Positions 36,914-49,240 of a DNA stretch of 64,000 bases are shown piece after piece; within the stretch, counting starts at the first letter, position 1, and each line of letters opens with the position of its first letter. The DNA is from Firmicutes bacterium HGW-Firmicutes-7 (GTDB lineage: Bacteria > Bacillota > Clostridia > Lachnospirales > Vallitaleaceae). A program made the position numbers and the translations under genes. The notes under the pieces were generated by a model. It saw only the letters and a list, made by a program, of their open reading frames with translations, did not search any database and was not told the DNA's origin. The stretch spans positions 1 to 64,000 of the forward strand of contig PGZO01000011.1 in NCBI GenBank assembly GCA_002841375.1. Reading direction: 5' to 3'.

Positions 36914-37290
36914 AGCACAAGGTTTGCTTTAAATTCAAAATATAAAGTATGAAGATATAAATACTTACATAATATGACGTATTTTCATAATAAATCTTGA
37001 CAAATTTAGTTTTAAGATATAATATAAATGTACGCAATTTATATTATATAAAGAAAATAAAATAATAATTTATGATTGGTTCATCATGTGAATTTTATAT
37101 TTTTATTCACAGCTATTATATTTTTGAGGGAAATATAATAATTATAGTCATAAATTTAATATAACAATGTTTCAGGGGCATAAGAAAATATGTTTATTTT
37201 TTATGCATAAAAGATCTTTAAAAAATACTTAATCGTGATAGGTATTAGCATGGATGAAATAAACAGAAGATTAACTTGGGGGTAATTAAC
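36914..37290 (+). promoter_or_regulatory. long AT-rich leader with a promoter for the polysaccharide locus
   Basis: TTGACA (36997-37002) is followed by overlapping -10 candidates TATAAT (37018-37023) and TAATAT (37020-37025). The message would have an untranslated leader of about 250 nt. In it GCATAAGAAAATA (37179-37191) can pair with TTATTTTTTATGC (37195-37207). No known riboswitch fold was recognised. The rest holds no gene. Confidence 0.5.
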
Positions 37291-44800: not shown

Positions 44801-45913
44801 ATGGAAAAAGTACTTTTTTCAGCATCAATAGATGAACATTTACTCGGATTTCATATTCCATACATCAAGTGGTTTTCACAACATGATTATGAAGTTCATA
44901 CAGCAAGTAAAGGTAATAAAGATATTCCCTTTGTGAATATAAAACATAATATTTCATTCGAACGTTCACCGTTTAAAATTGCAAACATTAGAGCTTTTTT
45001 GGAGTTGAAAAAATTAATTGATGAAAATGAGTATAAGCTCATCCACTGCCATACGCCAATGGCTAGTATTATAACTAGGTTCGCTGCAATGAAAGCAAGA
45101 AAGAAAGGTACTAAAGTAATATATACAGCACATGGATTTCATTTTTTTAAAGGTGCTCCTCTCGTTAATTGGGTATTTTACTATAGCATTGAAAAGATTG
45201 CATCCCGGTATACGGATTGTTTAATAACAATCAATGAAGAGGATTATAATCTAGCAAAGAATAAATTGTTTGCAAAGAATATTCGATTTGTAAACGGTGT
45301 AGGTATTGATTTGGATATATTTAAATATCAAACGATAGAAAAGAAAGCTGAGTTGAGAAAAAATTATAGGTATGATGAAAGAGATTTTATATTAATATAT
45401 GCTGGAGAACTTAGTTACAGAAAGCACCAAGATCTATTAATAGATGCTATCAATAATGCTCAGAATAGTATTCTTAACATAAAGTTATTGCTTGCAGGAG
45501 CAGGGAATTTATACGATCAATATAAAGAACAAATTATTAAACTAGGATTAGAAGATAAAGTGATTTTGCTAGGTAGTAGAGCAGATGTTGCAGAACTTAT
45601 GATGTTATCAGACATCGCAGTATCTGCCTCACGACAAGAAGGATTGCCGGTTAACGTGATGGAGGCTATTGCAATAGGATTGCCTTTAATTGTTACTGAT
45701 TGTAGGGGGAATCGAGATTTAGTTAAGAACAACGAAAATGGATATGTTATCGGTGTGAATGATACAAAAGATTTCAGTGATGCAATAGTGAGGCTCCATG
45801 ATTCGTTACAAGAAAGGCTGGAATTTTCAAAGAAGAACAAAGAAATTATTCAAAAGTATTCGCTTGAAAAGATTGTTGAGGATATGTGTGAAATATATCA
45901 AGAGTTTTTATAA
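44801..45913 (+). CDS. glycosyltransferase family 4
   Basis: The 370-residue product has a GT4 fold. The N-terminal domain opens HLLGFHIPYIKWF and has LIHCHTPMASIITRFAA, a match to EpsD-type enzymes. The C-terminal domain has LIYAGELSYRKHQDLL and the EX7E motif in SASRQEGLPVNVMEAIAIG. It adds one sugar to the lipid-linked repeat. Sits 92 bases after the aminotransferase and ends the first half of the locus; the riboswitch region follows. Confidence 0.9.
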   Translation: MEKVLFSASIDEHLLGFHIPYIKWFSQHDYEVHTASKGNKDIPFVNIKHNISFERSPFKIANIRAFLELKKLIDENEYKLIHCHTPMASIITRFAAMKARKKGTKVIYTAHGFHFFKGAPLVNWVFYYSIEKIASRYTDCLITINEEDYNLAKNKLFAKNIRFVNGVGIDLDIFKYQTIEKKAELRKNYRYDERDFILIYAGELSYRKHQDLLIDAINNAQNSILNIKLLLAGAGNLYDQYKEQIIKLGLEDKVILLGSRADVAELMMLSDIAVSASRQEGLPVNVMEAIAIGLPLIVTDCRGNRDLVKNNENGYVIGVNDTKDFSDAIVRLHDSLQERLEFSKKNKEIIQKYSLEKIVEDMCEIYQEFL

Positions 45914-45930
45914 TAATTACAAAAAAAGAC

Positions 45931-45959
45931 TTGTCTACCAAAGTAATCCATGTTATAAT
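45931..45959 (+). promoter_or_regulatory. promoter of the tandem riboswitch transcript
   Basis: TTGTCT (45931-45936) and TATAAT (45954-45959) are 17 bases apart and lie about 35 bases before the first c-di-GMP aptamer. Confidence 0.7.
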
Positions 45960-45990
45960 AGATGCAAATAGAAGAATAAATATGAGCTTT

Positions 45991-46088
45991 TCACGATAAT
46001 AGCAAACCAATCGAAAGGTTGGGACGCAAAGCTATAGGACCTTACCCCATTAGGGGAGGTAGCCAGTTACCGAAAGGGAAGTTTTTTT
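45991..46088 (+). ncRNA. c-di-GMP-I riboswitch (first of two)
   Basis: The aptamer core is recognisable: AAACCAATCGAAAGGTTGGG with a GAAA tetraloop, GACGCAAAGCTATAGGACC, the second helix CTTACCCC...GGGGAGGTAG and CCAGTTACCGAAAGG. A T run follows at 46082-46088, so it probably controls transcription termination. It senses cyclic di-GMP. Confidence 0.92.
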
Positions 46089-46144
46089 GTATTTAAAATT
46101 GACTTCATAGATTCAACAAATAAATTAAAACTTAAAATAACTCG

Positions 46145-46236
46145 TCAACGATAAAGGCAAACCAATGGAAATGTTGGGACGCAAAACTATAGGGTCTTAC
46201 CTTAAAAAGGAAGATAGCCAGTCACCGAAAGGGGTT
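46145..46236 (+). ncRNA. c-di-GMP-I riboswitch (second of two)
   Basis: The same core is present: AAACCAATGGAAATGTTGGG, GACGCAAAACTATAGGGTC, a shorter second helix and CCAGTCACCGAAAGGGG. The GAAAGGGG at its end is also the ribosome binding site of the gene at 46243, so ligand binding probably controls translation. Two tandem aptamers of the same class give sharper response or two control levels. Confidence 0.92.
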
Positions 46237-46242
46237 AATACT

Positions 46243-47685
46243 ATGAGAAATTTAAAAATATTTATGATTTTCATAATTATTTTTGCATTAATTGGATCAA
46301 CTAGTGCGGTAGAGGCAAGAAGAAGAAGTGATAGAACAAAAACTACAAAAAATGTAGCAATAATAGAAGAAGTAATAGTGCCAGAAGAAGTAATAGTGCC
46401 AGAAGAAGTAATAGTACCGGAAGAAGTAATAGTACCGGAAGAAGTAATAGTACCAGAAGAAGTAATAGTACCAGAAGTAGTAACAGTACCAGAAGAAATT
46501 GTAGTAGAAGAAGTTCAAGTAATACCAAGCGTATATGACGTAACAACATTAGGTATAGCGAATAATGGAACAGACGTAACAAATAAATTGAATGCTTTGC
46601 CAAGTGGGAATTATTATTTTCCTAAAGGTACATATGGCGTTAATGGGTTTGATGGTGTTAGCTACCAAGGATTTAAACCAAAATCTAATTCTACATATAC
46701 ATTTGCGGATGGTGCAGTAATAAAGGTGTTAACAAATGGATATACACATTATGCTGGTATATTTATTAAAAATACAGATAATCTAACATTGATTAATCCA
46801 ACAGTTCAAGGTGATAGACAATCGCATGATTATTCAAAAAATAGTACACATGAATGGGGACATGGTATTTTAATAGCAGAAGGAAATGGAAAAATTACTA
46901 TTGAAAGCCCATATGTTTATGATGTTACTGGAGATGGAATAGATTTAATTAGTCCAGGGTCACAAGTTGTTATTAATAATGTTAGAATAGAGCGTGCTAG
47001 AAGACAAGGAATATCTATCGAAAGTGCAGGAAGTGTATTAATAAACGGCGGAACAATAAAAGATATTTCAGGCGTATCTCCAGCATCCGGTATTGATATT
47101 GAACCATATGAAAATGGCCAACGCTTAGATAAAATTGTTATTAATAATATTACTACTCAAAATACACGTCAAGGGTTATTGCTAGCCAATTTACACATGG
47201 CTAATAATTACAATATTACAATTAATAATAGCACTTTTGACGGGATTTTTGTAAACAACATAGAAAAGACAATTGGTGGAGTAGTAAATATTAATAATCC
47301 GATAATTAATGGTTCTAATATGGGTTTGGTGTGGACAAATGCTTATGCAAACGTTAATATGAGTAATCCGATATTCAAACTTACAAGCCTAAAAAATGAA
47401 GGCGTAGTAGAAGGAATATTCCGTTTTTATGAACTTGATAGGACCAATGGAGATGTTATTGGTGGATTTAAATGTACGAATGCACAAATAGTAAATTCTC
47501 AATCTGAAAGTATAAATACAAGGATTTTCAATTTTAGTAATTCAGCAAAAACAACAGTTAGTGACATTAGTATAATTGTTACAAAGAGTAATATGACTAA
47601 TACGATTTGGGCTACAACACCTTCAACAATCGGAACTATTTTCTTATCAGAACCTAATATGACAAATGTTACTGCAAAATACTAA
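46243..47685 (+). CDS. secreted beta-helix surface protein with EEVIVP repeats
   Basis: The 480-residue product has a signal peptide (about residues 1-26, hydrophobic, ending SAVEA). A spacer follows with six exact copies of EEVIVP and degenerate copies after it (residues about 42-90), then a right-handed parallel beta-helix domain (about 95-480) of the pectate-lyase/polysaccharide-lyase type with many N-rich rungs (VVINNVRIERARRQGIS). It may bind or cleave a polysaccharide. ATG 46243 follows the riboswitch; a longer frame from 46165 would be inside the aptamer. Expression is controlled by c-di-GMP. Confidence 0.85.
   Translation: MRNLKIFMIFIIIFALIGSTSAVEARRRSDRTKTTKNVAIIEEVIVPEEVIVPEEVIVPEEVIVPEEVIVPEEVIVPEVVTVPEEIVVEEVQVIPSVYDVTTLGIANNGTDVTNKLNALPSGNYYFPKGTYGVNGFDGVSYQGFKPKSNSTYTFADGAVIKVLTNGYTHYAGIFIKNTDNLTLINPTVQGDRQSHDYSKNSTHEWGHGILIAEGNGKITIESPYVYDVTGDGIDLISPGSQVVINNVRIERARRQGISIESAGSVLINGGTIKDISGVSPASGIDIEPYENGQRLDKIVINNITTQNTRQGLLLANLHMANNYNITINNSTFDGIFVNNIEKTIGGVVNINNPIINGSNMGLVWTNAYANVNMSNPIFKLTSLKNEGVVEGIFRFYELDRTNGDVIGGFKCTNAQIVNSQSESINTRIFNFSNSAKTTVSDISIIVTKSNMTNTIWATTPSTIGTIFLSEPNMTNVTAKY
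46366..46473 (+). repeat. 18-bp tandem repeat coding for EEVIVP
   Basis: Six consecutive 18-base units (GAAGAAGTAATAGTGCCA and variants differing at third positions) encode EEVIVP. Further degenerate units follow. Copy number may vary by slippage and would change the length of the spacer between the signal peptide and the beta-helix. Confidence 0.9.
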
Positions 47686-47882: not shown

Positions 47883-49133
47883 ATGAAAAGGTTTGTAGCT
47901 ATAATAATTGTTTGTTGTTTAATCTTTAACATGATAGGCATGGTAGATTATTTTATACTAGATTCAACTGTGTTAGCAAATGAATCGTATATTAATGTTA
48001 TTGAATTGGGCATAAGTAATAACGGTGCTGATGTGACTGCTAAATTAAATTCATTACCAAGTGGAAATTATTATTTTCCCAAAGGTATATATGGAATAGA
48101 CGGAAAAGATTATCAAGGATTTAAACCTAAATCAAATTCTAGTTATCATTTTGAAAATGGCGCTGTATTAAAAGTTCTTACGAATGGATATACACATTAT
48201 GCAGGTATCTTAATTAGAAATTGTGATAATGTTACTTTGATTAATCCAACTATTGAAGGCGATCGGATAACGCATGATTATACATCTGAAGGTACACATG
48301 AGTGGGGACATGGAATTATAATTACTGATGGTTGTGGTAAAATAGTTATCAATAACCCATATATATATGATGTGACAGGTGATGGTATCGATTTTATATG
48401 TGAAGGTTCTGATGTTACGGTTAACAATTTAACGATTAAGAGAGCAAGAAGACAAGGTATATCTATTGAAAGTGCTGGAGTTCTTAACATTAATGGAGGA
48501 TTAATTGAAGATATTTCTGGAACATCTCCTGAAGCTGGGATAGACATTGAACCATATAAGATGGGCCAACATTTGGATGATGTAACAATTAGCAATATTA
48601 TAACTAGAAGAACTAAACAAGGTCTTTTATTTGCAAACTTACATATGGCAAATAACTATAAAGTTAGTATTAATAACAGTACATTTGATGGAATATATGT
48701 TTGTAATAGTGAAGGTGCAGTAGAAGGAGAAATTAATATTAACGATCCAATAATCAATGGATCTAATGTAGCGCTCTATTGGACCAATGCATATGTCAAT
48801 ATGAATATAAGAAATCCGATTTTTGTGGTTGATAATCTTAATAATGATGGGACGAGGGAAGGGATATTTCGTTTTAGTGAGCAAGACAAGGAAAATGGAG
48901 ATATTATTGGTGGATTAACCTGTACCAATGCACAAATTTTAAATTCTCAATCAGAATGCAGGGATACAAGAATTTTTAACTTTTCCAATTCATCAAAATC
49001 AACGGTTACGGACATTCATATTTCAGTTAGCAAGAGTAATATGACCAATACAATATGGGCAACAACGCCATCGTCGTTAAGAACAGTTAAGTTATCTGAA
49101 CCTAAGAATATAAATGTTACTATAAGATACTAA
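47883..49133 (+). CDS. secreted beta-helix surface protein, paralogue
   Basis: The 416-residue product has a signal peptide (about residues 1-30) and a beta-helix domain that aligns along its whole length with the preceding protein (for example THEWGHGI, RARRQGISIESAG, LHMANNY, MTNTIWATTPS). It lacks the EEVIVP spacer. The pair arose by tandem duplication. It has its own promoter and no c-di-GMP aptamer, so the two copies are differently controlled. A specific polysaccharide target is not visible. Confidence 0.85.
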   Translation: MKRFVAIIIVCCLIFNMIGMVDYFILDSTVLANESYINVIELGISNNGADVTAKLNSLPSGNYYFPKGIYGIDGKDYQGFKPKSNSSYHFENGAVLKVLTNGYTHYAGILIRNCDNVTLINPTIEGDRITHDYTSEGTHEWGHGIIITDGCGKIVINNPYIYDVTGDGIDFICEGSDVTVNNLTIKRARRQGISIESAGVLNINGGLIEDISGTSPEAGIDIEPYKMGQHLDDVTISNIITRRTKQGLLFANLHMANNYKVSINNSTFDGIYVCNSEGAVEGEININDPIINGSNVALYWTNAYVNMNIRNPIFVVDNLNNDGTREGIFRFSEQDKENGDIIGGLTCTNAQILNSQSECRDTRIFNFSNSSKSTVTDIHISVSKSNMTNTIWATTPSSLRTVKLSEPKNINVTIRY

Positions 49134-49212: not shown

Positions 49213-49240
49213 AGTCTACCTTACAAAGGTAGACTTTTTA
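49213..49240 (+). terminator. terminator after the beta-helix genes
   Basis: AGTCTACCTT (49213-49222) and AAGGTAGACT (49226-49235) form a perfect 10-bp stem with a three-base loop and a T run. Confidence 0.85.

Follow-up and report, generated by a model that had tools for sequence, protein, structure and literature searches.

A tandem of GEMM-I riboswitch aptamers with two predicted modes of control upstream of a secreted beta-helix gene in a Vallitaleaceae bacterium

Introduction

Two GEMM-I (c-di-GMP-I) aptamers stand in series behind one promoter and ahead of a single secreted beta-helix gene in Firmicutes bacterium HGW-Firmicutes-7; do both act on expression in the same way, and do both read the same ligand? 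The kind of system is already known, both as the c-di-GMP-I doublet and as the bi-mechanism tandem. A 2022 survey, in which the tandems were not all sorted by platform, counted 347 doublets and 12 triplets of c-di-GMP-I riboswitches, and a tandem of the transcription-then-translation type has been described for SAM-II/SAM-V (PMC9481103). In Bacillota, c-di-GMP-I tandems are enriched before COG1305 transglutaminase-like genes (PMC12452182). Here we describe the aptamers of this locus, the pairings that may connect each of them to expression, and the recurrence of the arrangement in relatives, and we weigh the explanations that these features allow.

Results

Locus, promoter and controlled unit

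The window, which is the whole stretch of 64,000 nucleotides that was analysed, lies on contig C75 of a 4.08 Mb draft assembly that is 99% complete. A polysaccharide locus spans roughly positions 37276 to 62556 and encodes proteins of the Pfam types Polysacc_synt_2, DegT aminotransferase, glycosyltransferase, Wzy_C and MurJ-type flippase; beyond 56,500 it continues with LytR-CpsA-Psr, chain-length, kinase, phosphatase and mannose-1-phosphate guanylyltransferase-like genes, as judged by eye from the sequence. Within this exopolysaccharide locus one promoter is followed by two GEMM-I aptamers and then by the gene for a secreted beta-helix protein (Table 1). The promoter begins 18 bases 3' of the stop codon of a glycosyltransferase gene and is the strongest + strand match nearby in the consensus scan. 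Transcripts arriving from the upstream genes would meet the first switch as well.

Table 1. Coordinates in the window of the features of the tandem leader and of the genes that follow it.
Feature	Position	Strand	Evidence
Promoter TTGTCT - 17 nt - TATAAT, with extended -10 TG	45931-45959	+	Consensus scan, 10/12 matches
5' strand of extended P1 / putative terminator stem of aptamer 1, GAGCTTTTC	45984-45992	+	Nine pairs with 46076-46084; MFE fold
Aptamer 1, GEMM-I / c-di-GMP-I, A at Vc2 position 20	45991-46074	+	RF01051, 73.1 bits, E 2e-12
A at ligand-contacting position 20 (G in ordinary c-di-GMP-I)	46001-46001	+	Read from sequence
3' strand of extended P1, GGGAAGTTT, into T7 tract 46082-46088 (putative integrated terminator)	46076-46088	+	Pairing, fold
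5' strand of P1 of aptamer 2 (TAACTC)	46138-46143	+	Pairs with GGGTTA 46232-46237
Aptamer 2, GEMM-I / c-di-GMP-I, G at Vc2 position 20 (46156)	46147-46230	+	RF03167, 61.4 bits; RF01051, 71.3 bits
Ribosome binding site (RBS) AAAGGGG (46228-46234), partly paired in P1 of aptamer 2	46228-46237	+	Sequence, pairing
Predicted controlled gene, secreted right-handed beta-helix protein, 480 aa	46243-47685	+	Pfam PF13229, E 2.1e-6
Paralogous beta-helix gene	47883-49133	+	64% identical overall, 68% in beta-helix part
Inverted repeat followed by short T tract	49213-49240	+	Listed on - strand; + strand sequence read

When the whole 64-kb window was searched for RNA families with Rfam cmscan, exactly two matches rose above the Rfam cut-off, both of them in the leader at 45991-46230. 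Just past the window lies a further c-di-GMP-I aptamer (L003, G000:C75:65577-65662), followed by a hairpin and T tract of its own and then by a gene for a secreted protein, close to where the polysaccharide locus ends.

The first beta-helix protein has a signal-peptide-like start followed by about six PEEVIV repeats. The second, paralogous gene has no aptamer of its own in the Rfam search of the window, and a sequence search gave no solved relative of its product. No relative of either paralogue occurs in 58 other related genomes. The inverted repeat at 49213-49240, as read from the sequence, is probably the end of the controlled unit, so that control by the switch is most likely limited to the beta-helix gene or genes and does not take in the whole polysaccharide operon. 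The initial annotation had linked the switch to surface composition; the polysaccharide setting is real, but the link is one of context, as the unit probably ends after the beta-helix genes.

Two aptamers that differ in the ligand pocket

Both aptamers score above the RF01051 gathering cut-off of 35 bits (Table 1). Aptamer 2 has all three of the pocket bases that correspond to G20, A47 and C92 (G46156, GACGCAAA and ACCGAA respectively); aptamer 1 keeps A47 and C92, and the equivalent of Vc2 G20 is A46001. The Rfam scores and the promoter scan agree with the earlier proposal of two aptamers of the same class behind one promoter, but that proposal had overlooked the difference, A versus G, in a base that contacts the ligand.

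Aptamer 2 also matches the c-di-GMP-I-GGC model, RF03167. Judging from the model consensus, the GGC name appears to refer to the base at the A47 position: the consensus reads GACGC-GAA, as against GACGC-AAA in aptamer 2, and in the alignments both aptamers read GACGC-A, so that neither carries the G that replaces A47 (GACGC-G). The label was rejected for aptamer 2 because its pocket base is A, and it looks like a product of clan competition.

A putative terminator formed by P1 of aptamer 1

The first aptamer had been thought to end at a T run, as expected of transcriptional control. No conventional hairpin precedes this run, the search having returned no terminator-like site in 45700-46400, and the classical hairpin was dropped in favour of a reading in which P1 provides the stem. 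The sole stem abutting the T7 run (46082-46088) is the extended P1 of aptamer 1, in which GAGCTTTTC (45984-45992) can pair at nine positions with GGGAAGTTT (46076-46084), several of the pairs being G-U. The transcription-type platform is thus retained as a prediction from sequence, with P1 itself and not an ordinary hairpin as its stem. Such a stem would enclose the entire aptamer as its loop, an uncommon feature among intrinsic terminators.

Folded as far as the T tract, the transcript has an MFE structure of -28.5 kcal/mol that contains the P1 helix, compared with -24.4 kcal/mol when the 3' strand is left unpaired, and the terminator fold is favoured by 4.1 kcal/mol over the latter. With a stretch one base longer, a competing helix is preferred (-28.6 kcal/mol). 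The competing folds are close in energy, and the states could therefore switch. Taken alone, the P1 stem of the window differs from shuffled 5' flanks at a p value of 0.017, which is nominal only.

A predicted ribosome-binding-site platform in aptamer 2

The RBS AAAGGGG (46228-46234) sits 8 nt 5' of the ATG at 46243, and the P1 pairing TAACTC/GGGTTA of aptamer 2 takes in its GGG. This predicted pairing supports the earlier statement that the second aptamer ends in the RBS of the beta-helix gene. The fold with P1 (-19.3 kcal/mol) and the best fold without it (-19.5 kcal/mol), which would pair the start-codon region instead, are almost equal in energy, and the energy model favours neither direction of translational control. 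Taken together, sequence and pairing point to a bi-mechanism tandem, with a terminator platform first and an RBS-covering platform second.

Recurrence of the arrangement in relatives

Within the family, 19 aptamers have a T tract at a spot like that of aptamer 1, and these show P1-type stems of differing sequence, some of them weak. A first, loose pairing scan of the terminator set gave no clear signal (26/300); it had allowed any stem, including pairs inside the U tract, and was replaced by a scan in the register of the T tract. Because this register was fixed after the result of the loose scan had been seen, the shuffle results that follow err a little on the favourable side: shuffled 5' flanks reached the observed mean of the 19 family aptamers in 0 of 1000 trials, and the terminator-pairing score of a 17-member set, in which close copies were thinned and other Bacillota added, in 0 of 2000. 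Paenibacillus terrae, one of the additions to the wider set, has no stem into the T tract. The RBS-type aptamers of relatives pair P1 with the RBS region (eight aptamers; 1/1000 shuffles).

The order of terminator first and RBS second is also found elsewhere in the family, among others at a further locus of this genome (on contig C55), and beyond the family in other Bacillota, namely Clostridium sp. ZS2-4, Fusibacter paucivorans and Lutispora. The two-mode arrangement put forward in the initial annotation thus recurs in relatives together with pairing that is consistent with it. The second tandem of this genome (L006/L008, G000:C55:83015-83199) precedes the gene for a secreted protein whose group occurs throughout the family; we infer this to be the transglutaminase-like group.

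These comparisons bear on the possibility that the T tract is not a working terminator, in which case aptamer 2 alone would control the gene and aptamer 1 would be a worn duplicate. The absence of a classical hairpin ahead of the T tract and the weak significance of the P1 stem of the window on its own are what this explanation would lead one to expect. Aptamer 1 nevertheless retains a high Rfam score, and the geometry that joins P1 to the T tract is kept with different sequences in relatives and in other Bacillota. We consider the loss of function in aptamer 1 unlikely.

The base at position 20 and the identity of the ligand

In Vc2, G20 contacts one base of c-di-GMP, and A at this position is the mark of c-AMP-GMP (GEMM-Ib) riboswitches (PMC9481103, PMC6274999), a mark that aptamer 1 carries and aptamer 2 does not. 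An A20 aptamer from Desulfobacca shows improved binding of c-AMP-GMP and perhaps slightly weaker binding of c-di-GMP (PMC9481103). Pairs of A20 and G20 aptamers in tandem are present in two other family members as well (G001 and G002). The J1/2 stretch of aptamer 1, AAUA, seems to be present in the Geobacter cGAMP aptamer too. These features would suit a two-messenger NOR gate, in which aptamer 1 would stop transcription in response to c-AMP-GMP (3',3'-cGAMP) and aptamer 2 would stop translation in response to c-di-GMP, with expression only when both are low. Such a gate would mean that a c-AMP-GMP synthase awaits discovery in Clostridia, and that ligand identity flips repeatedly at single genes through one base change.

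Against this stands the enzyme content of the genome, in which no known c-AMP-GMP synthase was found, whether Hypr GGDEF, DncV-like or SMODS. The DNA pattern of the Hypr GGDEF motif, which is positive in Geobacteraceae control genomes, is absent from this genome and from most of the family, and neither PF18144 nor PF21654 (SMODS, DncV-like cyclases) has a match in the 99% complete assembly. There are 29 GGDEF matches in the genome, and the canonical Asp of GHxxGD is present at 27 distinct GGDEF sites, a wealth of predicted canonical diguanylate cyclases that speaks for c-di-GMP as the ligand; the two weakest matches are L066, a degenerate GGDEF-EAL protein, and L067, whose motif residue falls outside the 27 sites that were read. 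Across A20-bearing genomes more generally, 36 of 50 are without a match to the Hypr pattern, and of the 14 that have one, several look fortuitous.

That A and G replace each other between orthologous riboswitches also argues against a second messenger. A pilC-like leader has A20 here and G20 in a congener, with proteins that are 90% identical and aptamers that are otherwise nearly identical; a transglutaminase-like tandem has G20 here and A20 in a congener (proteins 68% identical); an acetyltransferase-like gene has a leader with A20 in some species and G20 in another; and an S-layer-like tandem reads A/A, G/G and A/A in three species whose proteins are 77-83% identical. Because A and G exchange between orthologues and no known synthase was found, we doubt an input from c-AMP-GMP and give the two-messenger gate little credence. 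The simplest reading of these sequences is that c-di-GMP is still the ligand of the A20 aptamers in these bacteria, perhaps bound at another affinity.

Several further observations concern this position. Among 77 aptamers it is A in 19, G in 54 and C in 4; selection for mixed A/G pairs was considered and dropped, there being no excess over the base frequencies as judged by eye. In the S-layer-like tandem (L087, L103, L120) position 20 changes jointly in both aptamers, a possible sign of co-tuning or gene conversion. The RBS-type second aptamers of genus g8 have C20 (L088:581, L104:583, L119:596, L125:546); they belong to an A20/C20 tandem that precedes orthologous genes for secreted proteins and in which C20 is kept across four species. 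GEMM-I with A20 was found in many phyla, in at least 118 stretches; the U19-A20 form (L128-L245) extends well outside Geobacter, with a wide spread that takes in Bacillota, Pseudoalteromonas, Omnitrophota and others. A DncV-like nucleotidyltransferase (PF21654) is present in one family member only (G003:C13:5423-5662), and c-AMP-GMP could exist in that organism.

Discussion

We favour, as the probable explanation of this leader, a tandem two-step OFF riboswitch in which c-di-GMP is the ligand of both aptamers and the affinity of the A20 aptamer probably differs. RNA polymerase starting from the promoter at 45931-45959 would make aptamer 1 first, and ligand bound there would hold P1 closed. Since the 3' strand of P1 directly joins seven U residues, the closed helix would serve as an intrinsic terminator stem and end transcription near 46088. 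Transcripts that escape would carry aptamer 2, whose closed P1 would pair the GGG of the RBS and so block translation. Synthesis of the beta-helix protein would then be restricted to times of low messenger, and the pair of aptamers would form a tight switch that could also silence mRNA already made. It is from the geometry of both platforms, each of which predicts OFF with ligand, that we infer the direction of control.

The opposite direction, in which ligand on one or both aptamers would prevent a competing structure and raise expression, has a precedent in the characterised c-di-GMP-I tandem Bc3-5 of B. thuringiensis, a triple tandem that is a transcriptional ON switch (PMC4759541), and the alternative apo fold of aptamer 2 can pair the start-codon region, but the T tract lies directly after P1, so that closure of P1 cannot be antitermination of the usual design, and the RBS lies within the 3' strand of P1 in relatives too, and we regard an ON switch as very improbable.

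Comparison with known systems shows which parts of the design are shared. With the tandem c-di-GMP-I riboswitches already catalogued, the locus has in common two complete GEMM-I aptamers placed serially before one surface-related gene. The platforms of Bc3-5 are all alike, whereas those here differ and both predict OFF. The closest likeness in mechanism is to the SAM-II/SAM-V tandem, in which the first riboswitch acts at transcription termination and the second at translation initiation, both as OFF switches; that tandem, however, has another ligand and other folds, whereas here both aptamers are GEMM-I and the putative terminator stem is the P1 of the aptamer. Cd1 of Clostridioides difficile, from the flagellar operon, resembles aptamer 1 as a transcriptional OFF switch with a GEMM-I aptamer, but it has a separate downstream terminator (PMC9262584), whereas here the terminator would have P1 as its stem, and another aptamer stands at the RBS. 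The c-AMP-GMP riboswitches of Geobacter and A20 aptamer 3 of Desulfobacca acetoxidans share with aptamer 1 an A20 in GEMM-I. The characterised Geobacter switches are ON switches in hosts with Hypr GGDEF enzymes; the geometry here is of the OFF type, in a genome in which no Hypr or DncV-like enzyme was found.

In a literature search of incomplete coverage, and thus of little weight as evidence, we found no published GEMM-I tandem that combines transcription and translation with a P1 terminator. Nor did that search return a report of the recurrence of such GEMM-I tandems, or of a mixed or exchanging base 20 in them.

As to the role of the protein, our guess is that it trims (cuts) or binds polysaccharide at low c-di-GMP, as cells leave the biofilm state. 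A parallel is offered by PPEP-1 of C. difficile, a c-di-GMP-I-linked metalloprotease (PMC11477304) that cleaves an adhesin.

If the favoured explanation is right, the locus would represent a recurrent and compact GEMM-I design in Bacillota, in which P1 of the first copy forms the terminator stem and P1 of the second masks the RBS. It would provide c-di-GMP signalling with a two-level OFF switch of a kind that our literature search otherwise turned up for SAM riboswitches alone. Orthologues that exchange A and G at position 20, in bacteria where no c-AMP-GMP synthase is known, cast doubt on the habit of assigning c-AMP-GMP as ligand to every GEMM-I aptamer with A20, and near-identical natural pairs, such as the two pilC leaders, are well suited to settle the role of this base.
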